Assembly (NCBI RefSeq): GCF_003387075.1
Contig: NZ_QUMQ01000001.1
Span: 7,812,001-7,876,000 of the forward strand
Length of the DNA: 64,000 nt
Source of the DNA: Asanoa ferruginea
GTDB lineage: Bacteria > Actinomycetota > Actinomycetes > Mycobacteriales > Micromonosporaceae
Direction of reading: 5' to 3'
In this document: piece after piece, positions 43,628 to 64,000 of the stretch
Layout: each line of letters opens with the position of its first letter
Position numbering within the stretch: position 1 is the stretch's first letter
Made by a program: the position numbers and the translations under genes
Notes under the pieces: generated by a model
The model's database searches: none
What the model was told of the DNA's origin: nothing
What the model saw: the letters and a program-made list of their open reading frames with translations, nothing else

Positions 43628-44191
43628 ATGGACGTCGGCGCGACGCGCGACCGGATCCGCGAGCAGGCTTTGGCCCTGTTCACCGATCGTGGCTATGCCA
43701 CTGCGAGCCTGCGCGAGATCGCCGACCGGGTGGGCATCACGAAGGCGTCGCTCTACTATCACTATCCGTCCAAACAGGACCTTCTGGTCGCCGTCGTCCG
43801 GCCGCTGGTCGACCGGTGGCGCGAGATCGTGGCCGAGGCCGAGCAGGGCCGGCACACGCCTGACGACGTGCGGCGCGTGCTGCTGCAATGCGTCGACACC
43901 ATGCTGGCCCACCGGGCGGTCGCCAACCTGTTCCTGCGCGACGCGGCCGGCATGCTTCCCGCGCTCGCGCCGCTGCTCGACGACCTGGTGGAGGTCAACA
44001 ACCGGCTGCGGGACTGGCTCGCCGGCCCGGCACCGTCGCAGGTGGCCCGGATCCGCGCCGTGGCCGTGCTGGAACTGCTCCGCGCGGCGCTGACCGCCGG
44101 CGCGACCCTCGGCGACGTGCCCGACGAGCTGGTCCGGCGGACCCTGCTCGAGTCGGCCGAGCTTGTGCTCACGACCAGAACGGCAGCCTAG
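43628..44191 (+). CDS. TetR-family regulator, likely repressor of the MMPL exporter
   Basis: A 187-residue TetR with a clear HTH (RDRIREQALALFTDRGYATASLREIADRVGITKASLYYHYPSKQDLL, about 7-53) and a helical ligand domain. ATG at 43628 with GGGAGGTGG 3-9 bp upstream. A TATTCT hexamer lies at 43581-43586. It faces the MMPL gene across 114 bp; I see no perfect long palindrome there. Its end overlaps the convergent MocR gene by 23 bp. Confidence 0.88.
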   Translation: MDVGATRDRIREQALALFTDRGYATASLREIADRVGITKASLYYHYPSKQDLLVAVVRPLVDRWREIVAEAEQGRHTPDDVRRVLLQCVDTMLAHRAVANLFLRDAAGMLPALAPLLDDLVEVNNRLRDWLAGPAPSQVARIRAVAVLELLRAALTAGATLGDVPDELVRRTLLESAELVLTTRTAA

Positions 44192-46590: not shown

Positions 46591-47116
46591 CCGTCGCCTC
46601 GCTGACGAACAGCCGCCGGGCCGCCTCCCGGTTGGAGCACCCGCGCGCGATCAGCGACAGCACTTCGAGCTCGCGCTGGGTGAGCGGCTCCTGCCCGGGC
46701 GTGCGCAACCGGTCGATCAGCCGGCCGGCCACCGACGGCGACAGCACCGACTCGCCCCGGTGGGCCGCAGCCACCGCCCGGCACAGCTCGTCGCGCGGTG
46801 TGTCCTTGAGCAGGTAGCCGGTCGCGCCGGCCTTGATCGCCGGCAGCACGTCGGTGTCGGTGTCGTAGGTCGTCAGCACCAGCACCCGGGCCGCCGACCC
46901 GCGGGCCTTCAGTTCGCGGATCGTGCTCACCCCGTCCATCACCGGCATCCGCAGGTCGAGCAGCACCACGTCGGGGCGCACGGCGTCGGCCAGGGCCAGC
47001 GCCTCGCGGCCGTCGCCGGCCTCGCCCAGCACGGCGAACCGGCCGTCGGCGTCGAGCATCCCGCGCAACCCGTCGCGCACCACCGGATGGTCGTCGACGA
47101 TGATCACGCCGATCAC
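46490..47116 (-). CDS. NarL/LuxR-family response regulator
   Basis: A 208-residue regulator. Receiver domain with acidic pair VDDHPVVRDGL (about 8-18), phospho-acceptor Asp in VVLLDLRMP (about 54), Thr in VLTTYD and Lys in LLKDTPRDE. LuxR HTH at about 142-205 (EPLTQRELEVLSLIARGCSNREAARRLFVSEATVKTHL). The GTG start at 47116 overlaps the kinase stop by 4 bp. Last gene of the minus-strand run that includes two ABC systems, which are its probable targets, as in LiaRS/DesKR-like loci. Confidence 0.92.
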   Translation of the reverse strand: MIGVIIVDDHPVVRDGLRGMLDADGRFAVLGEAGDGREALALADAVRPDVVLLDLRMPVMDGVSTIRELKARGSAARVLVLTTYDTDTDVLPAIKAGATGYLLKDTPRDELCRAVAAAHRGESVLSPSVAGRLIDRLRTPGQEPLTQRELEVLSLIARGCSNREAARRLFVSEATVKTHLLHAYAKLGVRDRAAAVAVAFERGLLRAE

Positions 47117-50675: not shown

Positions 50676-51625
50676 CGGTGCTCCTCGGTGCCGGTGCGCA
50701 GGATGTCGAGCAGCCGCTCCTCGAGGCTGATCCGCGCCGGCTCGACGGAGTGCACCCGCACCCCGAGGCCGACCAGGTCGGCGACCAGCTCGGGAACGAG
50801 GTCGAGGTCGTCGACCGCGATCGTGTAGGCCTCACCCTCGTTGGTCACCGCACCGGCGGCCGCGAGCCGGGCCGAGGCCGCGGCGTCGACGGCGGAGAGC
50901 CGCAGCCGCAGCTCGCGCTGGCCGAGCAACTCGGCGAGGGTGCCGGAGGCGGCGACCCGGCCCTTGTCGAGGATGACGACCCGGTCGCAGACCCGCTCGA
51001 CCTCGCCGATCAGGTGTGAGTTGAGCAGGACGGCGACGCCGCGCTCCTTGAGCGACAGCAGCAGGTCGCGCACGTCGGCCCGGCCGAGCGGGTCGAGGGC
51101 GCTGGTCGGCTCGTCGAGGATGACCAGGTCGGGGCGGGCCACCAGCGCGACGGCCAGGCCGAGGCGCTGCTGCATGCCCTTGGAGAAGCCGCCCACCCGG
51201 TCACCGGCCCGATCGGCGAGGCCGACGAGGCCCAGGCACTCGTGCCGTTCGGCGGTCGGGACGGCGATCCCGGCGAGGCGCACGTGCAGCGCCAGCACCT
51301 CGGCCGCCGTGAGCCAGGGCTGGTAGCGGAACAGCTCGGGCAGGTAGCCGACCCGAGCCCGGGCCTTCGGGTCGCGCCCCGGCCGGCCGAGCAGCAGCAC
51401 CTCCCCCGAGTCGGGGCGGACCAGGCCGAGCAGGATCTTGATCACGGTGGTCTTGCCGGCGCCGTTGGGCCCGAGCAGGCCGACCACCTCGCCCCGGCCG
51501 ACCGTGCAGGAGACGTCGTCGACCGCGACCCGGCTCCGATAGCGCTTGCGCAGGCCCGAGCACCACACCGCCGGCCCCGGTGCCAGCTCGGTGACCAGCC
51601 GTTGTGCTGCTTCGAGCGAACTCAT
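50672..51625 (-). CDS. ABC transporter ATP-binding protein (CcmA/NosF-like)
   Basis: A 317-residue ATPase: Walker A GPNGAGKTT (about 54-62), Q-loop PELFRYQPW, signature FSKGMQQRLG (about 148-157) with K for the usual G, Walker B LVILDEPTSALDP and H-loop LNSHLIGE. A C-terminal about 85-residue extension follows, as in drug-resistance ATPases. ATGA overlaps with the anti-sigma gene before it and the permease after it make sigma/anti-sigma and ABC one translational unit. Confidence 0.92.
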   Translation of the reverse strand: MSSLEAAQRLVTELAPGPAVWCSGLRKRYRSRVAVDDVSCTVGRGEVVGLLGPNGAGKTTVIKILLGLVRPDSGEVLLLGRPGRDPKARARVGYLPELFRYQPWLTAAEVLALHVRLAGIAVPTAERHECLGLVGLADRAGDRVGGFSKGMQQRLGLAVALVARPDLVILDEPTSALDPLGRADVRDLLLSLKERGVAVLLNSHLIGEVERVCDRVVILDKGRVAASGTLAELLGQRELRLRLSAVDAAASARLAAAGAVTNEGEAYTIAVDDLDLVPELVADLVGLGVRVHSVEPARISLEERLLDILRTGTEEHR

Positions 51626-52863
51626 CGCGACCCCAATCCGCGGGCGACGGCGAGCACCTCGTCGGCGCTCAATGACCCGGCCACCGCGGTGACGATGCCG
51701 TTGTCGAGCCAGACGACGGCCGACATCGTGCTGTCGCGCGAACTCAGCAGCGTGGCGGGGACGCCGCCGACGTCGGTCGCCGAGCTCTTCATGTGCTCGA
51801 GCGACGTGAACAGCGGCAGCGTGGTGCCGTCGCCGGAGAAGCCGCGCAACTGCGCCGCGACGTTGGACGGCAGCACGGGCAGCAGATAGTCGCGGGCCGT
51901 CTCGAACGGCACACCCGAGGAGGTGTAGGCCGTCGGCGCGACCGCGCGGGCGACGATCATCGCCGGGACCGGCCGGCCCTGCGACCACATCGCGACCAGG
52001 CCGGGACCGGCGACCAGCCGGAACTTGCTGCCGTCGAGGCCGGGCGGCGGTGGCGGCAGCGTCACCCCGGCCGCCGCCGCGGTCTGCGCGGTCTTCGCGG
52101 CGGAGAAGGTGAACAGCGCACTGGCCCGGGCACCGACCTGATAGGTGGGTGGCCCGTTGACCCCCTTGGGTAGCTCGCGCACCACCGGGACGGCGAGACC
52201 GGTGGCCTGCGACGCGGCGGCGGCGTCGGCGACCGCGTGGATGTCGATCGGTTCGACCGGCACGAGCTCGCCGAAGGCGTCGAGCTCGGGCATCGTGATG
52301 AGGTCGGCCTCCGGCGCGGTGACCGGGGCGATCTGCTCGGTGCGGAAGATCTGGAGCCAGTCACCCGCCGCGGCGGCGCTGGCCCCGGTCAACAGAACAG
52401 CGACGCCGGCCACGGCGACCACCGGCCGGCTCAGCAAGCCCCGCCACCGGCCGGCGCGTCCGCGTCCGCCGGCCGCGACCAGCCGCCGCAAGCCGGCATC
52501 CGCCTCGCTCGCGGAGGCGGGCGAGGGCTCGCCCGACGCGACCAGCCGCTGCAAGCCGGCGTCGGCCTCGCTCGCGGAGGCGGGCGAGGATTCGCCCCCC
52601 GCGACCAGCCGCCGCAAGCCGGCGTCGGCCTCGCTGGAGGTAAGCGTTGGTTCGCCGGCCGCGAGCAGGCGTAGCCACCCGGCGTCGACATCGGTGGGGA
52701 CGACGAAGTCGAGTGCGCCGCTGGCGAACGACGCGTCGGCTTCGACCGCCGCGAGCCCGGTCAGGCAGACCCGGCAGCCGGCGACGTGGGCGCGGTCGGT
52801 GTCGGCGACGCCGGCCGGCTCGTCGAGCAGCCGGCGCAGCGTGCCGTCAGTCGGATGGCGCAT
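51622..52863 (-). CDS. Zinc-finger anti-sigma factor with tandem repeats
   Basis: A 413-residue protein. A ZAS-like H-x3-C-x2-C site (His26, Cys30, Cys33) typical of anti-sigma factors is followed by about 80 residues with 20- to 21-residue repeats (EADAGLRRLVAGGE type, about 57-135). One TM helix (about 147-168) follows and then an extracytoplasmic domain of about 245 residues. It likely binds and silences the ECF sigma factor encoded just upstream, releasing it when the outer domain senses stress. The start overlaps the sigma gene by 17 bp. Confidence 0.8.
   Translation of the reverse strand: MRHPTDGTLRRLLDEPAGVADTDRAHVAGCRVCLTGLAAVEADASFASGALDFVVPTDVDAGWLRLLAAGEPTLTSSEADAGLRRLVAGGESSPASASEADAGLQRLVASGEPSPASASEADAGLRRLVAAGGRGRAGRWRGLLSRPVVAVAGVAVLLTGASAAAAGDWLQIFRTEQIAPVTAPEADLITMPELDAFGELVPVEPIDIHAVADAAAASQATGLAVPVVRELPKGVNGPPTYQVGARASALFTFSAAKTAQTAAAAGVTLPPPPPGLDGSKFRLVAGPGLVAMWSQGRPVPAMIVARAVAPTAYTSSGVPFETARDYLLPVLPSNVAAQLRGFSGDGTTLPLFTSLEHMKSSATDVGGVPATLLSSRDSTMSAVVWLDNGIVTAVAGSLSADEVLAVARGLGSR
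52475..52680. repeat. 63-bp tandem repeat in the anti-sigma gene
   Basis: Units start at 52475, 52538 and 52601 (63 bp apart, each opening GCGACCAGCCG), with a degenerate fourth at 52661 (60 bp). They encode 21-residue Ala/Glu-rich units between the zinc finger and the membrane helix. Confidence 0.88.
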
Positions 52864-53479: not shown

Positions 53480-54409
53480 ATGCCGACGCTCAGGATCGCC
53501 GTAGCCGCTGGTCTGGGCCTGCTCATCACCGCCGTCGTGCCGGCGGCAGCGGCCGCCGCACCGCCGCCGTCGCCCAACAAGGCCTACTGGGCCGACGACA
53601 ACCACCTGCGCTACGAGGGCGGGATCGGGAAGACCAACAATCTCACGATCACCAACTACGGCCGGTTGCCCGGCGTCACCAAGTGGCTCTTCGACGATGT
53701 GAGCCAGATCGTGCCGGGCGTCGGCTGCGTGAACGTGACCGGCGACAACACCAAGGCCATCTGCACCGAGCAGGACAACACGATCTCCTGGTTCGCCGTC
53801 TACCTCGGCATGGGCAACGACACGCTGGTCTTCGACGCCTTCTTCGACACCTACACCCGGATCTACGGCGGCACCGGCGGCGACACCATCACCGTCGGCG
53901 ACAGTGCCGACCCCTACGTCGAGGTCTACGGCGAAGACGGCGACGACATGATCACGCGTACGGCCGGCGACAGCTACCTGCGGATCAGTGGCGGCCCCGG
54001 CGCCGACGAGCTGTGCGGCACCGACGCCTACGTCACCTACGACGACCATCCGGCCGCCGTCTTCGTCTCGCTCGGCGGGCCGGCCGGCGACGACGGCATG
54101 CCCGGCGAGGGCGACACGGTGTGCGGCACGGTCGCGGGCGTGAGCGGCACCGGCTTCGCCGACGGCCTGGTGGCCGGCAGCGGCCCGGCCGACCTGAGCG
54201 GCAAGGCGGGTGCCGACGTGCTGGTCGGTGGCGCGTCGAGCGACACCCTGTTCGGCGGGGAGGGCAACGACCTGATCTTCGGGTACGCCGGTGACGACTG
54301 GCTGGTCGGCGAGGGCGGCGCGGACACCCTCAACGGCGGCACCGGCGCCGACGACCGCTGCGACTACGACGCCCTGGACACGATCAGCGCCTGCGAGGAC
54401 GCCTACTGA
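53480..54409 (+). CDS. Secreted RTX-like calcium-binding repeat protein
   Basis: A 309-residue exported protein. Signal peptide 1-27 (AAAAA end). The rest holds RTX-type nonapeptide-like units along the chain: GGTGGDTI, GEDGDDMI, GGPGADEL, GKAGADVL, GGASSDTL, GGEGNDLI, GYAGDDWL, GEGGADTL. Such GGxGxDxUx repeats fold as a calcium-loaded beta roll outside the cell. Four or more cysteines suggest disulfides. No enzymatic domain is seen. Divergent from the ECF sigma gene, so it may be part of that stress response. Confidence 0.78.
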   Translation: MPTLRIAVAAGLGLLITAVVPAAAAAAPPPSPNKAYWADDNHLRYEGGIGKTNNLTITNYGRLPGVTKWLFDDVSQIVPGVGCVNVTGDNTKAICTEQDNTISWFAVYLGMGNDTLVFDAFFDTYTRIYGGTGGDTITVGDSADPYVEVYGEDGDDMITRTAGDSYLRISGGPGADELCGTDAYVTYDDHPAAVFVSLGGPAGDDGMPGEGDTVCGTVAGVSGTGFADGLVAGSGPADLSGKAGADVLVGGASSDTLFGGEGNDLIFGYAGDDWLVGEGGADTLNGGTGADDRCDYDALDTISACEDAY

Positions 54410-54535: not shown

Positions 54536-55765
54536 ATGACCGAGAATGTGTTACCAGCGTCGGAGCTCTACACCGACGAGTTCGCCGCCGATCCCTATCC
54601 GGCCTTCGCCAAGCTGCGCGAAGACAGTCCAGTGTGTCCGGTCACGTCGCCGCGGTTCGACTCCTTCCTGATCACCCGCTTCGACGACGCCAAGGCGGCG
54701 CTCAACGACCCGCGCCTCTCCAAGGACCTCTACGGACCGGAACAGCACTTCCTGCGCATCTTCGGGCCCAACTCCGAGGCCATCAACAAGAACATGCTCA
54801 ACTCCGACCCGCCCGAGCACAGCCGGCTGCGCCGGATCACCTCGCGGGCGTTCGCGCCCCGGCGGATCGAGGCGCTGCGGCCGCGGGTGGCCGAGATCGT
54901 CAGCGAGCTGCTCGACAAGGTGGTGCCGCAGGGCCAGGCCGACCTGATGCACGACTTCGCGATCCCGCTGCCGATGATGGTGATCTCCGAGCTGCTCGGC
55001 ATCCCGACCGCCGACCACGACCAGGTGCTCGCCTGGACCCAGGTGATCCGCGAGTCCGGGTCGTCGGGCCGCCCGCCCGCGGAGGAACGCGCGGCCGTGC
55101 AGGAGGCCCAGCTCCAGCTGCACCACTATCTCGCCGACGTGATCCAGGCCAAGCGCGCCCAGCCGCCGGCCGACGACATGATCAGCTCGCTGATCGAGGC
55201 CTGCGACCAGGACGGGCAGCTCTCCGAGCGGGAACTGGTCAGCACCACGTTCCTGCTGCTGTTCGCCGGGCACCAGACCACCGCCGACTTCATCGGCAAC
55301 GCGATGGTGGCCCTGCTGACCAACCCGGAACAGCTCGACCTGCTGCTGCGTACACCGGAGCTGTTGCCTTCGGCGGTTGAAGAACTGCTCCGCTTCGACG
55401 GCCCGTTGCCGGTGGCCAGCCCGCGGATCGCCACGGAGGACCTCGAGTTCCGCGGCGTGCGCATCCCCGCGGGTTCGATCGTCGGCGTGGCGATCAACGC
55501 GGCCAACCACGACCCCGAGGCGTTCGCCGACGCCGACCGGCTCGACCTGAGCCGCGAACGCGGGCCGCACATGGGCTTCGGGCACGGCGTGCACTACTGC
55601 CTCGGCGTGACGCTGGCCCGGATCGAGGCGCAGATCGGCATCGGGGCGCTGCTCCGCCGGCTGCCCGGATTGCGGCTCGCGCTGCCGGTCGAGGAACTGC
55701 GCCGGCTGCCGGCCGCGTCGCCGTTCCGTGGCCTCATCGAGCTTCCCGTCCGCTTCAACGCCTGA
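54536..55765 (+). CDS. Cytochrome P450 (cluster oxygenase)
   Basis: A 409-residue soluble bacterial P450: I-helix AGHQTTADF (about 244-252) with the acid/Thr pair region, K-helix EELLR (E283-xx-R286) and the heme loop FGHGVHYCLG with ligand Cys355. Length and layout fit CYP105/107-type class I enzymes that need ferredoxin and reductase, which are not encoded here. First gene of the cluster on the plus strand, 36 bp before the cyclase gene. It probably hydroxylates or couples the aromatic polyketide. Confidence 0.9.
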   Translation: MTENVLPASELYTDEFAADPYPAFAKLREDSPVCPVTSPRFDSFLITRFDDAKAALNDPRLSKDLYGPEQHFLRIFGPNSEAINKNMLNSDPPEHSRLRRITSRAFAPRRIEALRPRVAEIVSELLDKVVPQGQADLMHDFAIPLPMMVISELLGIPTADHDQVLAWTQVIRESGSSGRPPAEERAAVQEAQLQLHHYLADVIQAKRAQPPADDMISSLIEACDQDGQLSERELVSTTFLLLFAGHQTTADFIGNAMVALLTNPEQLDLLLRTPELLPSAVEELLRFDGPLPVASPRIATEDLEFRGVRIPAGSIVGVAINAANHDPEAFADADRLDLSRERGPHMGFGHGVHYCLGVTLARIEAQIGIGALLRRLPGLRLALPVEELRRLPAASPFRGLIELPVRFNA

Positions 55766-55801
55766 CCGACAGCAATAGATCCAAACCTTGAAGGAGCAGC
55801 A

Positions 55802-56467
55802 GTGGTATTCCGCAACGTGATCGTCTGCCGCATCGTCCCGGGCAGCGAGCAGAAGGTCGCCGACGTCTTCGGGCACTTCGACAAGGTGACCCGGCCGCAG
55901 GACGTCGGCGTGACCGGTCGCATCCTGCTGTCGCTCGACGACCTCTACATCCACGTCGTCGAGCGTGCGCAGGACCCGGAGATCAGCGGCCAGAAGCGTG
56001 GCCTGCCGGCGTTCCAGGAGATCGCGGACGCGATCGGGCAGTTCGTCACGCCCTACCCGCGCAACTGGGAGAACCCGTCGCACTCGGTCGCCAAGCCGTT
56101 CTACAGCTGGGTCGCGCCGAACGCCCAGTCGTCGGCGGCGAACCCGATGGTCATCGTGCAGCGGATCAAGCCCGGCTCCGAGCCGGCGGTGGCCCAGGTC
56201 TTCGCCGAGTCCGACAACGGGCCGCTGCCGGGCCAGATGGGCGTCACCGGGCGCTGGCTCTACTCGATCGACGACGTCTACGTGCACCTGATGGAGCGCA
56301 CCGACCAGGCGGTCGCCGAGGGGCTCGGGCAGAACCACCACGCGCCGGCCTTCACCAAAATCATCGAAGACCTGAGCCCGTACGTGGCGCCCTACAACCC
56401 CGAGAAGTGGCGCGGACCGCAGGACTCGATGGCCAAGCCGTTCTACAGCTGGAAAGCCAGCGACTGA
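55802..56467 (+). CDS. Double-domain TcmI-family polyketide cyclase
   Basis: A 221-residue protein of two TcmI-like domains, about 2-108 and 113-218. Both end in the same motif: NPSHSVAKPFYSW and GPQDSMAKPFYSW. Each has the IVCRIVPGSEQKVADVF/IVQRIKPGSEPAVAQVF start and the ILLSLDDLYIHVVER/WLYSIDDVYVHLMER strand. TcmI folds as a ferredoxin-like dimer that closes late rings in tetracenomycin; the fused pair may fold as an internal dimer. GTG start with AGGAG 6-8 bp upstream. Followed by a strong hairpin. Confidence 0.88.
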   Translation: MVFRNVIVCRIVPGSEQKVADVFGHFDKVTRPQDVGVTGRILLSLDDLYIHVVERAQDPEISGQKRGLPAFQEIADAIGQFVTPYPRNWENPSHSVAKPFYSWVAPNAQSSAANPMVIVQRIKPGSEPAVAQVFAESDNGPLPGQMGVTGRWLYSIDDVYVHLMERTDQAVAEGLGQNHHAPAFTKIIEDLSPYVAPYNPEKWRGPQDSMAKPFYSWKASD

Positions 56468-56484
56468 CCCGGCTCCGGATAGGA

Positions 56485-56515
56485 AAGGGCACCCCGCAAC
56501 CAGCGGGGTGCCCTT
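56485..56515. terminator. Bidirectional hairpin terminator of the cluster units
   Basis: Perfect 13-bp arms AAGGGCACCCCGC/GCGGGGTGCCCTT around a 5-base loop AACCA, placed between the convergent double cyclase and single cyclase genes. Very strong stem, no T-tract; it should end both transcripts. Confidence 0.8.
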
Positions 56516-56528
56516 CCTGCTGACCGGC

Positions 56529-56849
56529 TCAGCCGCGCCAGTTGTAGAACTCGCGAGCGACCGCGTCGGCCGGCGACTTCCAGGTCTTCGGGTCGTAGGG
56601 CTGGATGTAGGCCCGCAGGTCCTCGCTGATCTGCTGGAACCCGGGCAGCGCCGGGCCCTTGCGCAGCGCCTCCGACGGGTCGTCGCGGAACTCGATGACG
56701 TGCAGGTAGAGGTCGCCGAGCGAGTAGAGCGACCGGGTCTTGACCCCGAGGTCGTGCGGCAGGTCGGTGGCGTCGGACTCGGCGAAGATCCGGGCGACGG
56801 ACTTCTCCTCGCCGGGCTTGATGCGGGCGACGATGACGGACCGGTTCAT
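56529..56849 (-). CDS. TcmI-family polyketide cyclase, single domain
   Basis: A 106-residue TcmI-type cyclase: SVIVARIKPGEEKSVARIFAESD at the start, LYSLGDLYLHVIEF in the middle and the terminal SPADAVAREFYNW, the same ends as in both halves of the double-domain protein at 55802-56467, especially its second half. It likely folds as a ferredoxin-like dimer and guides ring closure of an aromatic polyketide. Last gene of the minus-strand operon, 11 bp after the flavin monooxygenase; terminated by the hairpin at 56485-56515. Confidence 0.87.
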   Translation of the reverse strand: MNRSVIVARIKPGEEKSVARIFAESDATDLPHDLGVKTRSLYSLGDLYLHVIEFRDDPSEALRKGPALPGFQQISEDLRAYIQPYDPKTWKSPADAVAREFYNWRG

Positions 56850-56860
56850 GTCACTTCCCC

Positions 56861-59218
56861 TTACGCGAAGATGCCAGCGAGGTGCTCGTCGATCGCGGTG
56901 GCGACGACGGGCGAACTGCGGAACCCGACGTGCCCGTCGGGCCGGATCAGGTAGGCGCCGGTGCCGCGCAGGCCGTACGCGTCGCGGAAAGCGCCGGACG
57001 CGTCCCGCAGGACCGGGGTCTCGAGCGTGCCGGGCACCGTCGCGTCCGGGCTCGCCACCACGTAGATGTTGAGCGAGCCGCGGGCCTTCTCGGCCAGCTT
57101 GTCGAAGCCGGCATACTCGTCGTCGCCGGTCGAGCCGTCGGCGTAGACGAGCAGGGTGTGCGCGGTGCCCCGGGTGAGCTCGAAGACCCGCACCTGGTGC
57201 CCGACCCCGAAGCGGCGGAGGTCGCGCACGTCCGGGGCCCGGTCGCCGGGCTGTGGCCCGCCGTCGAAGAGGTCACCGGAGGAGCCGACCAGTGGGCTGC
57301 CGGCGTACGACAGCGTCATCTGCATTTCGAGCATGAACTGCTCGCGCTCGTCGTCCATGTCCATCTCGTCGGTGAACGCGATCTTCACCGCGCGATCGAC
57401 GATCGCCTTGCCGGCCGGCCGGCGCTCGGCCTCGTAGCTGTCGAGCAGCCCCGGAGCCGCGGCGCCGCGGACCGCCAGCGCGAGCTTCCAGCCCAGGTTC
57501 CAGGCGTCCTGGATGCCGGTGTTCATGCCCTGCCCGCCGGCCGGCGGGTGCAGGTGCGCGGCGTCGCCGGCCACGAACACCCGGCCGACCTGGTAGCGGT
57601 CGACGATGCCGTGCTTGATCCGGAAGATCGACGACCAGCGCAGGTTGCTCGCGGTCGTGCCGGCCGGCGCGAGCTGGTCCAGCACGACCTGGATGTCGGC
57701 CAGCGACGGCGGGTCGTATTCCGCCGAGAAGCCGGGCGGGATGGCGCCCGCGCCGATCTCGGCCTGCAACCGCGGCGGCGCGAGGGTGGCCACCCGGTAG
57801 CGGCCCGGACCGCGCAGCGGCACGCAGACCAGCATGCCGCGCATCTCCTCGTCTTCGACCTGGATGAAGCGCAGCAGGTGGCCCTCCGGCATCGACCAGT
57901 CCAGGTCGACGTCGCCGAGCATGAACAGCTGCGGGAACATCCCCATGCCGCCCTCGAAGGTCAGCCCGAGGCTCTGCCGCACGGTGCTGTGCGCACCGTC
58001 GCAGCCGACCAGGTATTGCGCGCGGACTGTCTCGACGCTGCCGTCCGGGCGCAGCACCTGAGCGGTCACGCCGTCGGCGTCCTGGTCGAACGCCTGGAGC
58101 TCGTGGCCGCGCTCGACGCTCACGCCGTGGCCGGCGAGGCAGTTCTCCAGGATCCGCTCGGTCTCGTATTGCGGCAGGCCGACGTGGGCGAACGGCAGCT
58201 CCGGCAGGTCCCAGTCGACCTGGTGGGTCTGCTGGCCGTTGACGAAGACGGTCTGGCCGTGCAGCCAGACGCCCAGGTCCATCGCCTCGCGCGCGACGCC
58301 GATGTTCTCCCAGATCTCCATCGTGCGGCACTGCACGCCGATCGCCTTGTCGGCGGCCACGTTGCCGTCGGGGCGCTTCTCGATCAGCCGGCAGGAGACA
58401 CCGCGCCGGGCCAGCTCGATCGCCGCGGTCAGACCGGCCGGGCCGGCTCCCACGACGAGCACGTCGGTCGAACCGTCCACCGTGGATCCCTTGCGGGCGA
58501 CGACCGGTCGCGGCGCCGGCTGCGGTTGCGGTTGGGGCTGCGGCTGGGGTTGCGCTTGCGGTCGCGGCCGGGCGGCGGCCACCGGGGACGACGACACCGG
58601 CAGTTCGTCTTCGGGACGCACCGCGATGTGGTAGGTGGTCCGCTTGAAGTTGTCGCAGATGTATTGGATGAGCGGCGCCGTCTGGTCCAGGTGCCCCTGG
58701 TCGTCGGTCCAGGCGTTGAACGACGTCTCGTCCTCCCACTCCGCGAAGATGTGGTAGGTCCCGGTGCCGGGCTCGCGCAGCAGTTCCTCCCGGACGTGCC
58801 CGGGTGTCCCCCGCATCCGCTCGGCGACCTTGAGGTAGGCGCGTTCGTAGGCCTCCTCCTCGCCGGGAGCGACCGTGACGGTGACGTCGACCCGGATCCG
58901 GGGCCCCGCACCGATCACCGTCTCCAGCACCTCGTAGGTCGCCTTCTCGCCGGACTCGCGCAGGTCGCGCAGCGCGGCGGTGAGCCGCTCGCGCGCGGCG
59001 CTGGGGCCGAACGCCGCGAGCGCGGCCGAGTCGGCCCAGTCACTGACGATCAGGAAGGTACGCGAATCCTCGACGTCGCGGATCAGTTCCTGGCGCAGGC
59101 TGCCCGGCACCCGGCTGATGTGCGCCGCGGCCGACCGCCAGGCCCGCTCGAACTCCGCCGCGCAGCCCTCCCGGGCCCGCATTCGCAGGATGGTCCGCAC
59201 TGGACTGTCATCGGGCAT
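56861..59218 (-). CDS. Flavin monooxygenase with two N-terminal antibiotic-monooxygenase (ABM) domains
   Basis: A 785-residue fusion. ABM-like domain 1 (about 5-95, TILRMRAREGCAAEFERAW ... FLIVSDWADSAAL) and domain 2 (about 107-200, VDVTVTVAPGEEEAYERAY ... YHIFAEWEDETSF) are followed by a Pro-Gln linker (about 216-240). A PHBH-type FAD domain begins with GAGPAGL (257-263), has a DG motif CDGAHSTVR and the second FAD motif GDAAHLHPPAGGQGMNTG, then a thioredoxin-like C-terminus. ABM enzymes of the ActVA-Orf6 type oxidise anthrones to quinones without cofactor; the FAD part hydroxylates or does Baeyer-Villiger chemistry. The fusion may channel intermediates. The start overlaps the KS-beta gene by 11 bp. 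Confidence 0.9.
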   Translation of the reverse strand: MPDDSPVRTILRMRAREGCAAEFERAWRSAAAHISRVPGSLRQELIRDVEDSRTFLIVSDWADSAALAAFGPSAARERLTAALRDLRESGEKATYEVLETVIGAGPRIRVDVTVTVAPGEEEAYERAYLKVAERMRGTPGHVREELLREPGTGTYHIFAEWEDETSFNAWTDDQGHLDQTAPLIQYICDNFKRTTYHIAVRPEDELPVSSSPVAAARPRPQAQPQPQPQPQPQPAPRPVVARKGSTVDGSTDVLVVGAGPAGLTAAIELARRGVSCRLIEKRPDGNVAADKAIGVQCRTMEIWENIGVAREAMDLGVWLHGQTVFVNGQQTHQVDWDLPELPFAHVGLPQYETERILENCLAGHGVSVERGHELQAFDQDADGVTAQVLRPDGSVETVRAQYLVGCDGAHSTVRQSLGLTFEGGMGMFPQLFMLGDVDLDWSMPEGHLLRFIQVEDEEMRGMLVCVPLRGPGRYRVATLAPPRLQAEIGAGAIPPGFSAEYDPPSLADIQVVLDQLAPAGTTASNLRWSSIFRIKHGIVDRYQVGRVFVAGDAAHLHPPAGGQGMNTGIQDAWNLGWKLALAVRGAAAPGLLDSYEAERRPAGKAIVDRAVKIAFTDEMDMDDEREQFMLEMQMTLSYAGSPLVGSSGDLFDGGPQPGDRAPDVRDLRRFGVGHQVRVFELTRGTAHTLLVYADGSTGDDEYAGFDKLAEKARGSLNIYVVASPDATVPGTLETPVLRDASGAFRDAYGLRGTGAYLIRPDGHVGFRSSPVVATAIDEHLAGIFA

Positions 59219-60422
59219 GCTGCAGACCCTCCTCGGGATAGCGCTTGAGCACGATCGAGCTGTTGAACCCGCCGAAGCCGCGGGCGTTGACCAGCACCAC
59301 GTCGGCGGCCAGCCGGCGCGGTTCGCGGACCAGGTCGAGGTCGTGGCCGGGCCGGCTGAGGTTGCCGACGGCCGGCACGACGCCGTCCCGCAGTGCCAGC
59401 AGCGCGGTCGCCACGTTGAGCGCCGCGCCGCCGGAGCAGAGCCGGCCGACGAAGCCCTGCGGCGCGGTCACCGGCACCGGCCGGCCGAAGACCGCGCGGA
59501 TCGCCGCGGCCTCCAGCCCGTCGAGCACCGGCGTGCCGGCGCCGTCGGCGACCACGAAACCGACCTCGTCGGGCGTAACATCGGCGTCGGCGAGGGCCTT
59601 GCGCATCGCGCGTTCGAGCTGGGCGCTGTCCGGCGCGGGTTCCTCCGGGTGGTGCCCGTCGTGCGTGGCGGCGTAACCGGCGATCTCGCCGTACACCTGC
59701 TGCACTCCCCGTTCCGCGGCGGTCGCGGCGTCCTCCACCACCAGCACCGCACCGCCCTCGCCGGGCACGTAGCCGTTGGCGTCGGCGTCGAACGGCTTGT
59801 AGCCGGCCCGCGGGTCGCGGCTGGCGGTGAGCCGGCCGCTGGTCTGCTGGCAGACCAGCGCGTAGGGGGACAACGGCGCCTCGGTGCCGCCGGCGATGAC
59901 GGCCGGGGTGCCGCGCCGGATGATCCGGCGGGCCATGCCCAGGCTGTCGAGTCCGCCGGCGCCCTCAGAGACGAGCACGCTGTTGGGCCCCTTGGTGCCG
60001 TGCAGGATGGAGGTCTGCCCGACACTGGCGGCGTAGAACCAGGCGATCGACTGGTAGGCGCTGACCGCGGCGCGGCCCCGGCTCCACAGCGCCTGGATCT
60101 CCTTCTGGCCGAACTCGTTGCCGCCGGACCCGCTGGCCAGCACGACCGAGGTGGCGTAGGGGTCGTGCCCGGCCGGGTCGTATTTGGCGTCGTCGAGCGC
60201 CATCCGGGTGGCGGCCAGCGACATCCAGCTCCACTTGTCGGTCTGGATGATCAGGCGCGGGTCGACCAGGCCCTCGGCGTCGAAGCCGGACACCTGACCC
60301 TGCAACCGGTCGTCGTGGCAGCCCACGTGCAGGTCGCCGGCGAGCGTGGAGCGCCAGTGCTCCTCGGCGGTGAGCCCGCTCGGTGCGATCACCCCGATGC
60401 CGGTGATGACGGCCCTGGTCAT
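59208..60422 (-). CDS. Type II PKS ketosynthase beta (chain length factor)
   Basis: A 404-residue KAS-fold subunit. In place of the KS Cys loop it has SEGAGGLDS, so the nucleophile is absent, as in chain length factors. The position that is Gln in many CLFs reads Gly. It forms the heterodimer with KS-alpha and sets chain length. ATG at 60422 overlaps the KS-alpha stop (ATGA), the classic coupling of the pair; GGAGG lies 9 bp upstream. Start at the GTG at 60431 is less likely. Confidence 0.93.
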
Positions 60423-61678
60423 GCTGACCACCTCCGTAGGACAGCGGCGGACTGGAAGCCACCGAAGCCGCTGCCGACCGAGAGCGCCACGTCGACCCGT
60501 TGCTCACGCGCGTTCTTCGGCACGTAGTCCAGGTCGCATTCCGGGTCGCGGTTCTCCAGGTTGGCGGTCGGCGGGATCACGCCGTAGCGGATCGCCAGCA
60601 CGCACGCGGCGAGTTCGATCGCCCCGATCGCGCCGAGCGAGTGACCCACCATCGACTTGATGGAGCTGACCGGCACGTCGTACGCGTGCTGCCCGAGGCT
60701 CCGTTTGAACGCGGCCGTCTCGTGCCGGTCGTTCTGCTTCGTGCCCGAACCGTGCGCGTTGACGTAGCTCACCGCGGTCGGGTCGAGCCGGGCCTGGCCG
60801 AGCGCGTCGGTGATCGCCTCGGCCATCTCCAGCCCGTCGGGCCGCAGCCCGGTCATGTGGAACGCGTTGCTGCGGTTGGCGAACCCGGCGACCTCGCAGA
60901 AGATCTCGGCGCCGCGCCGGCGGGCGTGCTCGAACTCCTCGAGGATCAGGACCGCGGAGCCCTCACCCATCACGAAGCCGTCGCGGGTGGCGTCGAACGG
61001 CCGTGACGCGTGCTCCGGGTCGTCGTTGCGGGCCGAGGTGGCCCGGATCGCGTCGAAGCACGCCATGGAGATCGGCGAGATCGGCGCGTCGGCCGCACCG
61101 GCGATGACCACGTCGGCGTCGCCGTCCTCGATCAGCTGGTGGCCGTAGCCGATCGAGTCGAGGCCCGAGGTGCAGCCGGTGGAGATGACGGCGGCCGGCC
61201 CGTGCACCCGGTAGCGGCACGCCACCTCCGTCGCCGCGCTGCTCGGCACCAGCGCCTGGTAGAGGAACCGGCTGGCGTAGCGCTCGTCGACCTGCCAGTC
61301 CCGGCCGTGGTTGCTGACGTTGACGTATTCGTCTTCGAGGCGCGTGGTGGCGCCGACCGCGCTGCCGATGCTCACCGCGACCGCGTCCCGGTCGGTCGCG
61401 TCGAGGTCCAGGCCGCTCTCGGCCAGCGCCTCGTCGGCGGCGGCGAGCGCGAACTGGGTGAACCGGTCGTTGCGGTAGACCTCCTGCGAGGTCAGCCCGG
61501 CCTTGATCGGATCGAAGTCGCACTCGGCCGCGATCTGCGAGCGGAAGTCGGTCGGGTCGAAGAAGCTGATCCGCCGGGTCGCCGTCCGCCCGGCGGTCAG
61601 CAGCTCCCAGAACGCCCGCCGGTTGACGCCGCCCGGAGCGACCACGCCCACCCCGGTGACGACCGTCCGCCTGGTCAC
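60419..61678 (-). CDS. Type II PKS ketosynthase alpha
   Basis: A 419-residue KAS II-type enzyme that condenses malonyl-ACP extender units on the minimal PKS. Catalytic Cys169 ([10 protein letters not shown]), His309 (NAHGSGT), Lys341 and His346 ([12 protein letters not shown]) are all in place; the C-terminal [10 protein letters not shown] loop is intact. The GTG at 61678 overlaps the cyclase stop by 4 bp. Its direct partner is the KS-beta at 59208-60422. Motifs are those of aromatic polyketide synthases rather than FabF. Confidence 0.95.
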
Positions 61679-62571
61679 GGGCCCTCCCCGGGCAGTGCCT
61701 CGGTGTCCACATGGCCGAGTTCCGGCCGCGGCGCCAGCGGGCCGAGCGTGAAGACCAGGAACGCCGGCGCGTCACTGTCGTTCATCAGCCGGTGCTTGAC
61801 CCCGATCGGAATGTGTACGCCGTGGTTGGCGGCCAACGAGACCTCGCGCCCGTCCAGCCGCACCGTGATGGCGCCTTCGACACAGAAGAGGAACTCCTCC
61901 GAGTACGGGTGCCAGTGCTCGGTCACCAGTTCGGCCGGCGCGAGCCGCAGCGTGCCCATGAAGCCCGACGTCGAGCCGACGGTGGCCGGCGAGAGGATCG
62001 TGCGGATGTCGCCGCCGCGGCGCCGGTTGGCCGCCACGTCGTCGATCGACACGACCCGGATCTCGCGCTTCGGCGCGGCCGGACCACCGATGCCGGCGCC
62101 GGCGTGGCTGTTGGCGGCGAGCTTCTCGACCTTCTGCCGGATGACGTCCATCTGGATCGCGGTGTTGGCGTTGATCCGGTCGGTCATCGCGGCGGTGTCG
62201 ATCGGCGCGTCGGGGCGCATCCGGAAGTCCTGCACCCAACGCATCCGGGTGCCGTGGCCCTCGACCTCGTAGGTCCACTCGATGTTCATGAACTCGAACG
62301 GCCCCGGCTCGACCCGGCGGGCGACCACCCGCCGCCCGGCCCGGTTGAGGGTGCGCTCGGAGACCCAGGCCCACACCTTGCCGTTCTCGTCCGGGTGCAT
62401 CGCGAGGCGGAAGCGCACCGTGTCGCCGCTGCGTTCGAGGATCTCCGCGGATGCGTACTCCGTGAAGAGTTCCGGCCATTTCTCGACGTCGTTGGTCGCT
62501 TCCCAGACGATGTCGAGCCCGGCGTTGATCAGCACGGAATTGTCGACATGCCCGATCGTGGGGGCGCTCAT
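61675..62571 (-). CDS. Fusion cyclase: SRPBCC aromatase/cyclase plus cupin
   Basis: A 298-residue protein. The N-terminal polyketide cyclase SRPBCC domain (about 5-150: [29 protein letters not shown] ... [20 protein letters not shown]) resembles TcmN/WhiE-type first-ring aromatase/cyclases. The C-terminal cupin (about 195-285) has [12 protein letters not shown] and [10 protein letters not shown], giving the His/Glu metal site, as in WhiE-ORFII/CurC-type cupins. In most known clusters these two functions are separate genes. Start overlaps the ACP stop (ATGA). Confidence 0.87.
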
Positions 62572-62819
62572 GCCGCCGGCTCCTTGGCCAGCCGCTTGTT
62601 GATCTCAGCGGTGATGTCGCCGACGGTCTGCGCCAGCGGGCGGTCGTCCGGCAGCTCGAAGCCATACAGCCCCTGCAGTTCCGACTGGAGCTGGAGGAAC
62701 GCGAGCGAGTCCAGGCCCAGGTCGCCGAAGGTCTTGGCGGGATCCTCGGTACGCATGTCCTTGGGCAGTCCGACCTTGCTGACCAGCAGCGACATCAGGT
62801 CGTCGATGGTGAATGTCAT
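62568..62819 (-). CDS. Type II PKS acyl carrier protein
   Basis: An 83-residue ACP. The phosphopantetheine attachment Ser38 lies in GDLGLDSLAFLQLQ, the usual DSL motif; the rest is a four-helix bundle start (FTIDDLMSLLVSKVG). GGGAGGAAAG precedes the ATG. It carries the growing chain for the KS pair. It sits upstream of the cyclase and KS genes, whereas in most type II clusters the ACP follows the KS-beta. ATGA overlaps join it to the genes on both sides. Confidence 0.95.
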   Translation of the reverse strand: MTFTIDDLMSLLVSKVGLPKDMRTEDPAKTFGDLGLDSLAFLQLQSELQGLYGFELPDDRPLAQTVGDITAEINKRLAKEPAA

Positions 62820-64000
62820 CTTTCCTCCCGTGGTTGCGAATCGGTGAGCCGGTCGACGAGCGACGTGTCGTGCGTTCCGGCGACGAAGAGCGGGTGGTCC
62901 AGCGCGGTCGTCAGGAAGTCGCGGTTGGTGCTCACCCCCGGCCCCTCGACGGAGAGTTCGCTGAGCGCGCGCCGCATCCGGGCGATCGCCTGCGGCCGGT
63001 CCGGCGCCCAGACGGCGATCTTGGCGAGCAGCGGGTCGTAGGCCGCGGAGATCCGGCCGCCGGCAAACGCGGCCGTGTCGACCCGGACGAACGGGCCGCC
63101 GGGAAAGGTCAGCTCGGTCAGCATCCCCGGGGTCGGCATGAAGTCGCGCGCGGGATCCTCGGCGTTGATCCGGCACTCGATGGCCCAGCCGCGCGCCGAC
63201 AGCTCTTCCTGCGTCGCGGCGATCCGCTCCCCCGCCGCGATCCGCAGTTGCTCGCGGACGATGTCGATGCCGTGGGTCATCTCGGTGACCGGGTGCTCGA
63301 CCTGGATCCGGCAGTTGACCTCCATGAAGTAGAACCGCTGCTGCTCGTCGACCAGGAACTCGACGGTCCCGGCACCGACGTAGCCGGCCGCGAGCAGGCC
63401 GCGCACGGCCGCGCTGCCCATCTGCTCCACCAGCTCGGGCGGCAGGCCGGGCGCGGGCGACTCCTCGATGATCTTCTGGCGGCGGCGCTGCACCGAGCAG
63501 TCCCGCTGGCCCAGGTGCAGCCCGTTGCCGTGCCGGTCGCAGAGCACCTGCACCTCGACGTGCCGGGCGGCCGGCAGGTAGCGCTCCACGTAGACCCGGT
63601 CGTCGCCGAACAGCGACTGTGCGGTGGACCGGATCTCCCGGTATTGCCGGGGCAGGTCGTCGGGGTCGTTGACCACCTGCATGCCCCGGCCGCCGCCGCC
63701 GGCGACCGCCTTGACGATGACCGGGTAGCCGATGTCGGCGGCGACCTTGGCCACCGCCTCCGCGTCGGCGACCGGTTCGATCGTGCCGGGCAGCAGCGGC
63801 AGCCCGGCCTCGGCCATGGCCGCGCGGGCGGTGGACTTGTCGCCGAGTTGGTCGATCACCCCGGCGGGCGGGCCGACGAAGGTGAGGCCGGCCGCCTCGC
63901 ACGCCTCGGCGAAGTCGGCCTGCTCGGACAGGAAGCCGTAGCCGGGGTGCACGGCGTCGGCACCGGTCTGCCGGGCCGCTTCCATGATCGCCGGCAGGTA
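62816..64000 (-). CDS. Acetyl-CoA carboxylase biotin carboxylase subunit, 5' end beyond window
   Basis: The visible 394 residues are the C-terminal portion of a biotin carboxylase. The gene begins beyond 64000. It has the ATP-grasp core (GYPVIVKAVAGGGGRGMQVV), VQRRRQKIIEESPAP, the catalytic MEVNCRIQVEHPVTEM and the biotin carboxylase C-domain (ECRINAEDP ... PPG-like region). No biotin attachment (MKM) domain is present, so BCCP is separate or absent. In polyketide clusters such a subunit raises malonyl-CoA supply. Stop overlaps the ACP ATG (ATGA). Confidence 0.93.
   Translation of the reverse strand, partial: YLPAIMEAARQTGADAVHPGYGFLSEQADFAEACEAAGLTFVGPPAGVIDQLGDKSTARAAMAEAGLPLLPGTIEPVADAEAVAKVAADIGYPVIVKAVAGGGGRGMQVVNDPDDLPRQYREIRSTAQSLFGDDRVYVERYLPAARHVEVQVLCDRHGNGLHLGQRDCSVQRRRQKIIEESPAPGLPPELVEQMGSAAVRGLLAAGYVGAGTVEFLVDEQQRFYFMEVNCRIQVEHPVTEMTHGIDIVREQLRIAAGERIAATQEELSARGWAIECRINAEDPARDFMPTPGMLTELTFPGGPFVRVDTAAFAGGRISAAYDPLLAKIAVWAPDRPQAIARMRRALSELSVEGPGVSTNRDFLTTALDHPLFVAGTHDTSLVDRLTDSQPREER

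Follow-up and report, generated by a model that had tools for sequence, protein, structure and literature searches.

The window analysed here, a stretch of 64,000 nucleotides from Asanoa ferruginea (contig NZ_QUMQ01000001.1, bases 7812001-7876000 of a 9.07 Mb single-contig genome; coordinates above 64000 continue the window numbering), carries a type II polyketide synthase (PKS) cluster of 13 genes, which runs from a cytochrome P450 to a SARP regulator. An initial annotation had reported type II PKS genes here, and open reading frames together with a Pfam search confirm all of them in their places, with best Pfam E-values of 1.6e-7 for the short acyl carrier protein (ACP) and of 1e-13 or lower for all others, far beyond chance. 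Ten of the genes form an operon on the minus strand. Its head, which lies outside the window, comprises a ligase-like gene for a degenerate adenylation-domain protein (66362-67651, or L006:12362-13651), an AccD-AccA fusion (64680-66365) and a biotin carboxyl carrier protein (BCCP; 64195-64683). There follow the biotin carboxylase AccC (62816-64183, GTG start at 64183), which runs past the window edge at 64000 and whose frame (L006:8816-10525) scores 598.7 bits with NF006367 against a cut-off of 597, the ACP with a DSL motif (62568-62819; PF00550), and an SRPBCC aromatase/cyclase of TcmN/WhiE-VI type (PF03364/PF10604) fused to a TcmJ-type cupin cyclase (PF07883; 61675-62571). The ketosynthase (KS) pair comes next: KS-alpha (60419-61678) has Cys169, His309, Lys341 and His346, which we take to be the catalytic residues, all in place, while KS-beta, the chain length factor (CLF), occupies 59208-60422 if its ATG at 60422 is used, a GTG start at 60431 being possible as well. 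The operon closes with a fusion of two antibiotic biosynthesis monooxygenase (ABM) domains to a FAD monooxygenase (ABM-ABM-FMO; 56861-59218; PF03992 twice and PF01494) and with a TcmI-type cyclase (56529-56849; PF04673, E 3.2e-42). On the plus strand, the P450 (54536-55765; PF00067, E 1.7e-32) and a tandem TcmI-type cyclase with two PF04673 domains (55802-56467; E 1.2e-70, in 2 stretches) stand at one end of the operon, and the divergent SARP gene (67751-68563, outside the window) at the other.

The genes of the operon are tightly packed, as had been pointed out. Namely, AccC and ACP, ACP and cyclase-cupin, and cyclase-cupin and KS-alpha overlap by 4 bp each, as do KS-alpha and KS-beta if the latter starts at 60422; KS-beta and the monooxygenase overlap by 11 bp, and only the final pair, the monooxygenase and the TcmI-type cyclase, is set apart, by 11 bp. 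The initial annotation was also right that the window edge cuts the cluster: the adjoining sequence adds the start of AccC, BCCP, the AccD-AccA fusion, the ligase-like gene and the SARP gene. Because BCCP and the AccD-AccA fusion continue the operon past the edge, AccC is part of a full acetyl-CoA carboxylase set.

The cluster is found in all six Asanoa genomes that we examined. In the five others, the cyclase-cupin protein is 84-86% and the P450 82-83% identical to the protein of the window, the P450 and the double cyclase lie on the same side of the operon in each case, and the operon order is the same, except for extra genes inserted before the final cyclase. In particular, the space between the double TcmI-type and the TcmI-type gene contains, in all five (L021-L025), either a single gene or a pair of genes encoding DUF4062-STAND NTPase-TPR proteins with approximately 860 amino acids, while the window has a 61 bp gap and no such gene at this spot; this protein has 29-39 matches, many of them partial, in each of the six genomes. 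We also sought 16 neighbouring genes of the window beside the other five clusters, over approximately 9-10 kb left of the P450 and 2 kb right of the SARP gene. Domain-level matches within the cluster aside, only three of the 16 have homologues there, each in a single genome: those of the genes at 44169 and 45346 lie directly left of the P450 in genome G088, and that of the gene at 47113 lies right of the SARP gene in G101. Since nearly all flanking genes lack a match beside the other clusters, the block conserved in all six genomes is the one from the P450, its left end, to the SARP gene. Within Asanoa, dN/dS amounts to 0.22-0.25 for KS-beta and 0.19-0.28 for cyclase-cupin, in four comparisons each.

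Several features of the surroundings may be recorded here. An RTX-type calcium-binding repeat protein adjoins the cluster (53480-54409), and in the other five Asanoa the 9-10 kb or so on the left side of the P450 contain no match to it; a protein without a Pfam match (51622-52863) contains near-identical repeats of approximately 20 residues around SEADAGLRRLVA; and at L007:4607-9036, some 4 kb past the end of the cluster, another FAD monooxygenase neighbours a large SARP-type regulator that has an AAA domain. Two Asanoa genomes possess further type II PKS genes (L035 in G088, and G072:C14).

The relatives of the cluster were collected by a KS-beta alignment scan over 84,980 species, from which the best 80 of 190 confirmed loci were taken. 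A further 11 loci, from the window and its family, brought the total to 91, eight of which were dropped before tree building, having no uninterrupted match of more than 330 amino acids for both KS-alpha and KS-beta; seven Streptomyces and Kitasatospora loci, added later to the 83 usable ones, made 90 rows. Note that distant type II PKSs are under-represented in this set, because the scan relied on two peptide patterns from the KS-beta of close relatives, and that all trees are quick searches without bootstrap, the supports being SH-aLRT values. In the tree of concatenated KS-alpha and KS-beta, the pair from the window falls inside a clade of 48 rows, hereafter clade A, which remained intact when the seven extra loci were included and then had a support of 99 (97 for KS-alpha alone and 53 for KS-beta alone). 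All 48 share the order cyclase-cupin-KS-alpha-KS-beta. In other words, the gene order is unusual when set against the textbook KS-alpha-KS-beta-ACP, but not when set against the relatives, and the idea of an order unique to this cluster was abandoned, as it recurs across genera. One locus (L077), first grouped with this order on a 26% cyclase match, lies outside the clade in the tree and was moved. Two rows (L027 and L085) are the same in sequence, so that the clade A count of 48 and the count of 28 given below each include one duplicate, and some loci (L046, L051, L059-L061 and L108) measure just 5.3 to 16.9 kb, so that genes missing from them may lie beyond the stretch.

The fusions recur as well. 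Taking one frame without a stop as the mark of a fusion, by which a few of the cases may be false, cyclase and cupin are joined in 11 of the 48 rows (five Asanoa, a Kineosporia, three Actinomadura, an Actinacidiphila and one further Micromonosporaceae), and a FAD monooxygenase is joined in this way to two or more ABM domains in 28, in genera from Asanoa to Geodermatophilus and Kutzneria. Homologues of the double TcmI-type cyclase are present in part of the clade A loci, and the P450 was found in Kutzneria, Amycolatopsis and Geodermatophilus loci, too; several Geodermatophilaceae loci, L048 among them, have four ABM domains and a gap of approximately 1 kb between cyclase and cupin. The initial annotation was therefore sound in what it observed and overstated how odd the order and the fusions are. 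Most of what it regarded as distinctive is shared: the KS pair lies in a clade that has its order in common with clusters of the frankiamicin type, both fusions recur, and KS-alpha is sister to a spore-pigment-type group. The cluster is a variant within a broad and barely studied family, in which we are aware of one branch with a described product, that of frankiamicin. A literature search for fusions of ABM domains with FAD monooxygenases returned nothing of use.

The individual domains point in a similar direction. The best solved matches of the cyclase domain are 3TVR/3TL1, which we take to be WhiE ORFVI, and 2KF2, followed by TcmN, with 188 bits for 3TVR/3TL1 and 168 for TcmN. In a tree of ABM domains, ABM1 is nearest to the position-1 and ABM2 nearest to the position-2 proteins of pentangular-type loci, albeit on only 98 columns and with long branches meeting, and because of this placement we read the triple fusion as a PdmH-like domain, a PdmI-like domain and a group A hydroxylase. 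Of the two, PdmH is needed for rings C to E and PdmI is non-essential (PMC4383371). The secondary structure in a low-confidence model of the triple fusion would suit a pair of ferredoxin-like repeats, with a linker of low confidence at 199-245.

What would such a set of enzymes make? The KS-beta of the window has I133, A139 and S140, which fits the rule that I/V133, A139 and S/T140 occur in all training KS-beta enzymes making at least 24 carbons (PMC4383371). Cyclases of the TcmN, TcmJ and TcmI types, a trait of the pentangular subclass, are all present, and so is another such trait, the adjacent PdmH/PdmI-like ABM pair, though here its members are fused together and to the FAD monooxygenase. 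To this extent the closure of multiple rings in the pentangular manner, as put forward in the initial annotation, is supported, and its interpretation stands in part. A ketoreductase (KR) of the PdmG/BenL type, on the other hand, is described as invariable in pentangular clusters (PMC4383371), whereas no match to the Frankia KR was obtained across 44.0-74.0 kb, and a scan of 20 predicted proteins from 51.6 to 77.0 kb, which are part of the frames there, showed no short-chain dehydrogenase/reductase (SDR) domain. The cluster thus cannot be classed as a standard pentangular one. Across clade A, matches to the Frankia KR of at least 45% identity are confined to five rows, all of them Frankiaceae of the frankiamicin type, some loci being too short to judge, and the matches of 33-37% in L045 and L067 were too weak to be counted.

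Taking these observations together, the cluster most likely works like a pentangular one minus the reduction. Its product is probably a polycyclic aromatic polyketide that has at least 24 carbons and is not reduced, and we rate the chance that it is some sort of pigment as better than even. We infer the individual reactions, as well as the product and its role, from the genes, their order and domains, the phylogeny, the negative result for a KR and the conservation described above. In particular, the cluster's own acetyl-CoA carboxylase (AccDA, BCCP and AccC) would supply malonyl-CoA, from which the ACP and the KS pair would assemble the chain; the TcmN/WhiE-VI-type domain would close the first rings, and the cupin cyclase, joined to it covalently, would then take over for the following ring; the TcmI-type cyclases and the PdmH/PdmI-like ABM domains would close or oxidise the remaining ones; and the attached FAD monooxygenase and the P450 would hydroxylate the core. 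Thanks to the two fusions, successive steps would take place on a single chain and, with no pentangular-type KR, the position that is reduced in described pentangular polyphenols should stay oxygenated. That said, several points weigh against this picture. Apart from the failure of the KR rule, a gene for an aldo/keto reductase (69191-70210) is found close by the conserved block, though not within it, so that another kind of enzyme could carry out a reduction; identity to the Frankia MOX proteins is no more than 29-32% for ABM1 and ABM2, and the solved enzymes nearest to the FAD monooxygenase are distant relatives; a poor fold model was obtained for the triple fusion (mean pLDDT 62.6, pTM 0.37, 9 sequences); our searches turned up no known product for the window's subclade; and the argument for a pigment is drawn wholly from conservation and kinship. 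A literature search for Asanoa products or for a pigment likewise gave nothing of use.

The closest described system is the frankiamicin (fkm) cluster of Frankia sp. EAN1pec, with the order TcmI-ACP-TcmN-cupin-KS-alpha-KS-beta-KR-ABM-ABM (PMC4383371). Its link to clade A is through five fkm-type Frankiaceae loci in the clade, four of which have the published order, while L051, a 5.3 kb contig, has it from the cyclase onward; for the strains to which the contigs L050 and L068 belong, the genome paper lists frankiamicin among the potential compounds (PMC5391423). Besides the KS clade, the fkm cluster shares with the window the run ACP-TcmN-cupin-KS-alpha-KS-beta and the subsequent ABM pair, and the five rows share N109 of KS-beta with it. 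However, a KR is present in fkm, where cyclase, cupin and ABM proteins are each encoded by genes of their own, no carboxylase, FAD monooxygenase, P450 or SARP is listed in Table 2 of its description (PMC4383371), and D110, R118 and V129, which accompany N109 in all five Frankiaceae KS-beta proteins, are E, A and A in the window (residues 192 and 195 were left unused, as their column numbering is doubtful). With neither the KR nor D110, R118 and V129 found at the window locus, the frankiamicin pathway itself is not what we see there. Xantholipin (xan), arixanthomycin (arx) and lanthomicin (ltm) provide another comparison, as the initial annotation had thought of xanthones. A P450, a FAD monooxygenase, an ABM pair, a carboxylase and a SARP gene are listed for ltm and partly for xan and arx, and three cyclases, an ABM pair, carboxylase genes and a SARP gene are shared with the window, as is the FAD monooxygenase in the case of ltm (PMC9127795). 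Their order, as we read it, is cyclase-cyclase-KS-alpha-KS-beta-ACP-cyclase-monooxygenase-KR-ABM-ABM-carboxylase and, unlike that of the window, includes a KR (PMC9127795). What is more, loci with this kind of order fall outside clade A, and among the 20 scanned proteins we met neither this order nor an asparagine synthase, nor an SDR ketoreductase, methyltransferase, glycosyltransferase or transporter. The xanthone proposal has therefore found no specific support, and a pentangular xanthone or similar antibiotic seems to us a very improbable product. Persiamycin, compared by description, resembles the window in its WhiE-like KS pair, three cyclases and acetyl-CoA carboxylase genes (PMC7296137).

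Could the cluster, then, be the Asanoa equivalent of the Streptomyces whiE cluster, making a like unreduced long-chain polyketide that is deposited on spores? For comparison we used five Streptomyces and Kitasatospora loci (L137-L141), called whiE-type from our own reading of their gene order. Rooting the KS-alpha tree on the paralogue makes these five the sister group of clade A, represented by 15 rows, with a support of 98, whereas KS-beta gives a three-way fork in place of this sister pair. The WhiE-VI-like cyclase domain, the presence of the cluster in every Asanoa genome examined and the lack of CLF residue Gln161 in both groups (see below) agree with such a role, and a KR match is wanting on both sides. 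The gene order does not: the whiE-type loci read cupin-KS-alpha-KS-beta-cyclase-TcmI, with an ACP match in one of the five, they give no carboxylase match in the compared stretches, and their ABM and FMO matches, at just 26-30%, are arranged otherwise. The whiE spore-pigment order, presumably cupin-KS-alpha-KS-beta-(ACP)-cyclase-TcmI with a SchA/CurD-type gene, is not seen at the window locus, where SchA_CurD matches stay below the cut-off. whiE-like pathways have been reported in Frankia, Micromonospora and other genera (PMC4255298) and in all but one Micromonospora strain studied (PMC5765111), but frankiamicin, which also comes from clade A, was isolated from culture supernatant (PMC4383371). 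We regard a spore pigment of the whiE kind as a serious possibility that nevertheless falls short of even chances, and we keep to the wider reading of an unreduced aromatic polyketide, probably a pigment.

The most interesting point, however, which the initial annotation had overlooked, is a residue missing from KS-beta throughout the clade. A CLF glutamine has been described as intrinsic to starter-unit decarboxylation (PMC6638757). At this position (Gln161 in actinorhodin CLF numbering, by alignment) the window has Gly, and none of the 48 clade A rows has Gln: there are 35 Gly, 10 Ala and one each of Glu, His and Thr, the five fkm-type rows being among those without it. In the whiE-type group it is Glu in all five. 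Among the remaining 37 rows Gln is found in 36, including all 15 loci that we grouped, as resembling the xan, arx and ltm clusters, by a cyclase after KS-beta, and His in one (L116). The KS-beta of L035, one of the further Asanoa loci, keeps the glutamine as well. Two state changes on the tree account for this pattern. Given the Glu of the whiE-type CLFs and the His of L116, we rejected the loss as a mark of clade A alone. A word search that covered the main texts met no mention of this glutamine in PMC4383371, in a CLF catalogue (PMC10132072) or, by name, in a review (PMC12664062), and others may have noted it.

One might take the missing glutamine as a sign of a different starter unit, brought in by the ligase-like gene at the operon head. 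Relatives primed with something other than acetate are noted to have either a type III KS or a free-standing adenylation domain (PMC4383371), and in clade A the ligase-like gene is confined to the loci of Asanoa, all six of which have it (66-73% identity), save for one 23% match in L087. The gene is kept by purifying selection, less strictly than its neighbours, with a dN/dS of 0.34-0.37 against 0.19-0.28 for two of these in four comparisons each. The protein aligns with adenylation enzymes, its best solved match being a salicylate-AMP ligase (E 3.4e-21). The stretch in which we would expect the P-loop motif typical of adenylation domains varies in sequence and length among the six Asanoa and has lost the usual motif, and a domain search gave no match to the C-terminal adenylation subdomain, both of which weaken the case for a full acyl ligase with a starter-unit role. 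Moreover, relatives without this gene lack Gln161, too. Since frankiamicin is built from acetate units (PMC4383371), the loss need not imply a change of starter, and we consider a non-acetate starter unlikely. A different, somewhat less unlikely but still doubtful idea is that the whole branch, all 48 rows of clade A and the five whiE-type ones, primes by another route, without the KS-beta glutamine to which the decarboxylation of malonyl-ACP and the start of the chain are ascribed.

Were this the case, the occurrence in the branch of an acetate-built product, frankiamicin, would mean that natural synthases can do without the glutamine, and the degenerate adenylation-domain protein of Asanoa may then aid priming in a non-catalytic way. 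Clade A may be the large KS-pair clade without a characterised member to which the Frankia KS pairs were assigned in 2015 and of which that work solved the Frankia branch (PMC4383371), a link made by description; its cyclase and monooxygenase fusions extend across many genera, while an fkm-type KR is seen in five Frankiaceae rows only. The product of the cluster could be sought in named Asanoa type strains, and with Gln161 absent across clade A, natural enzymes are at hand for testing how chain initiation is modelled.

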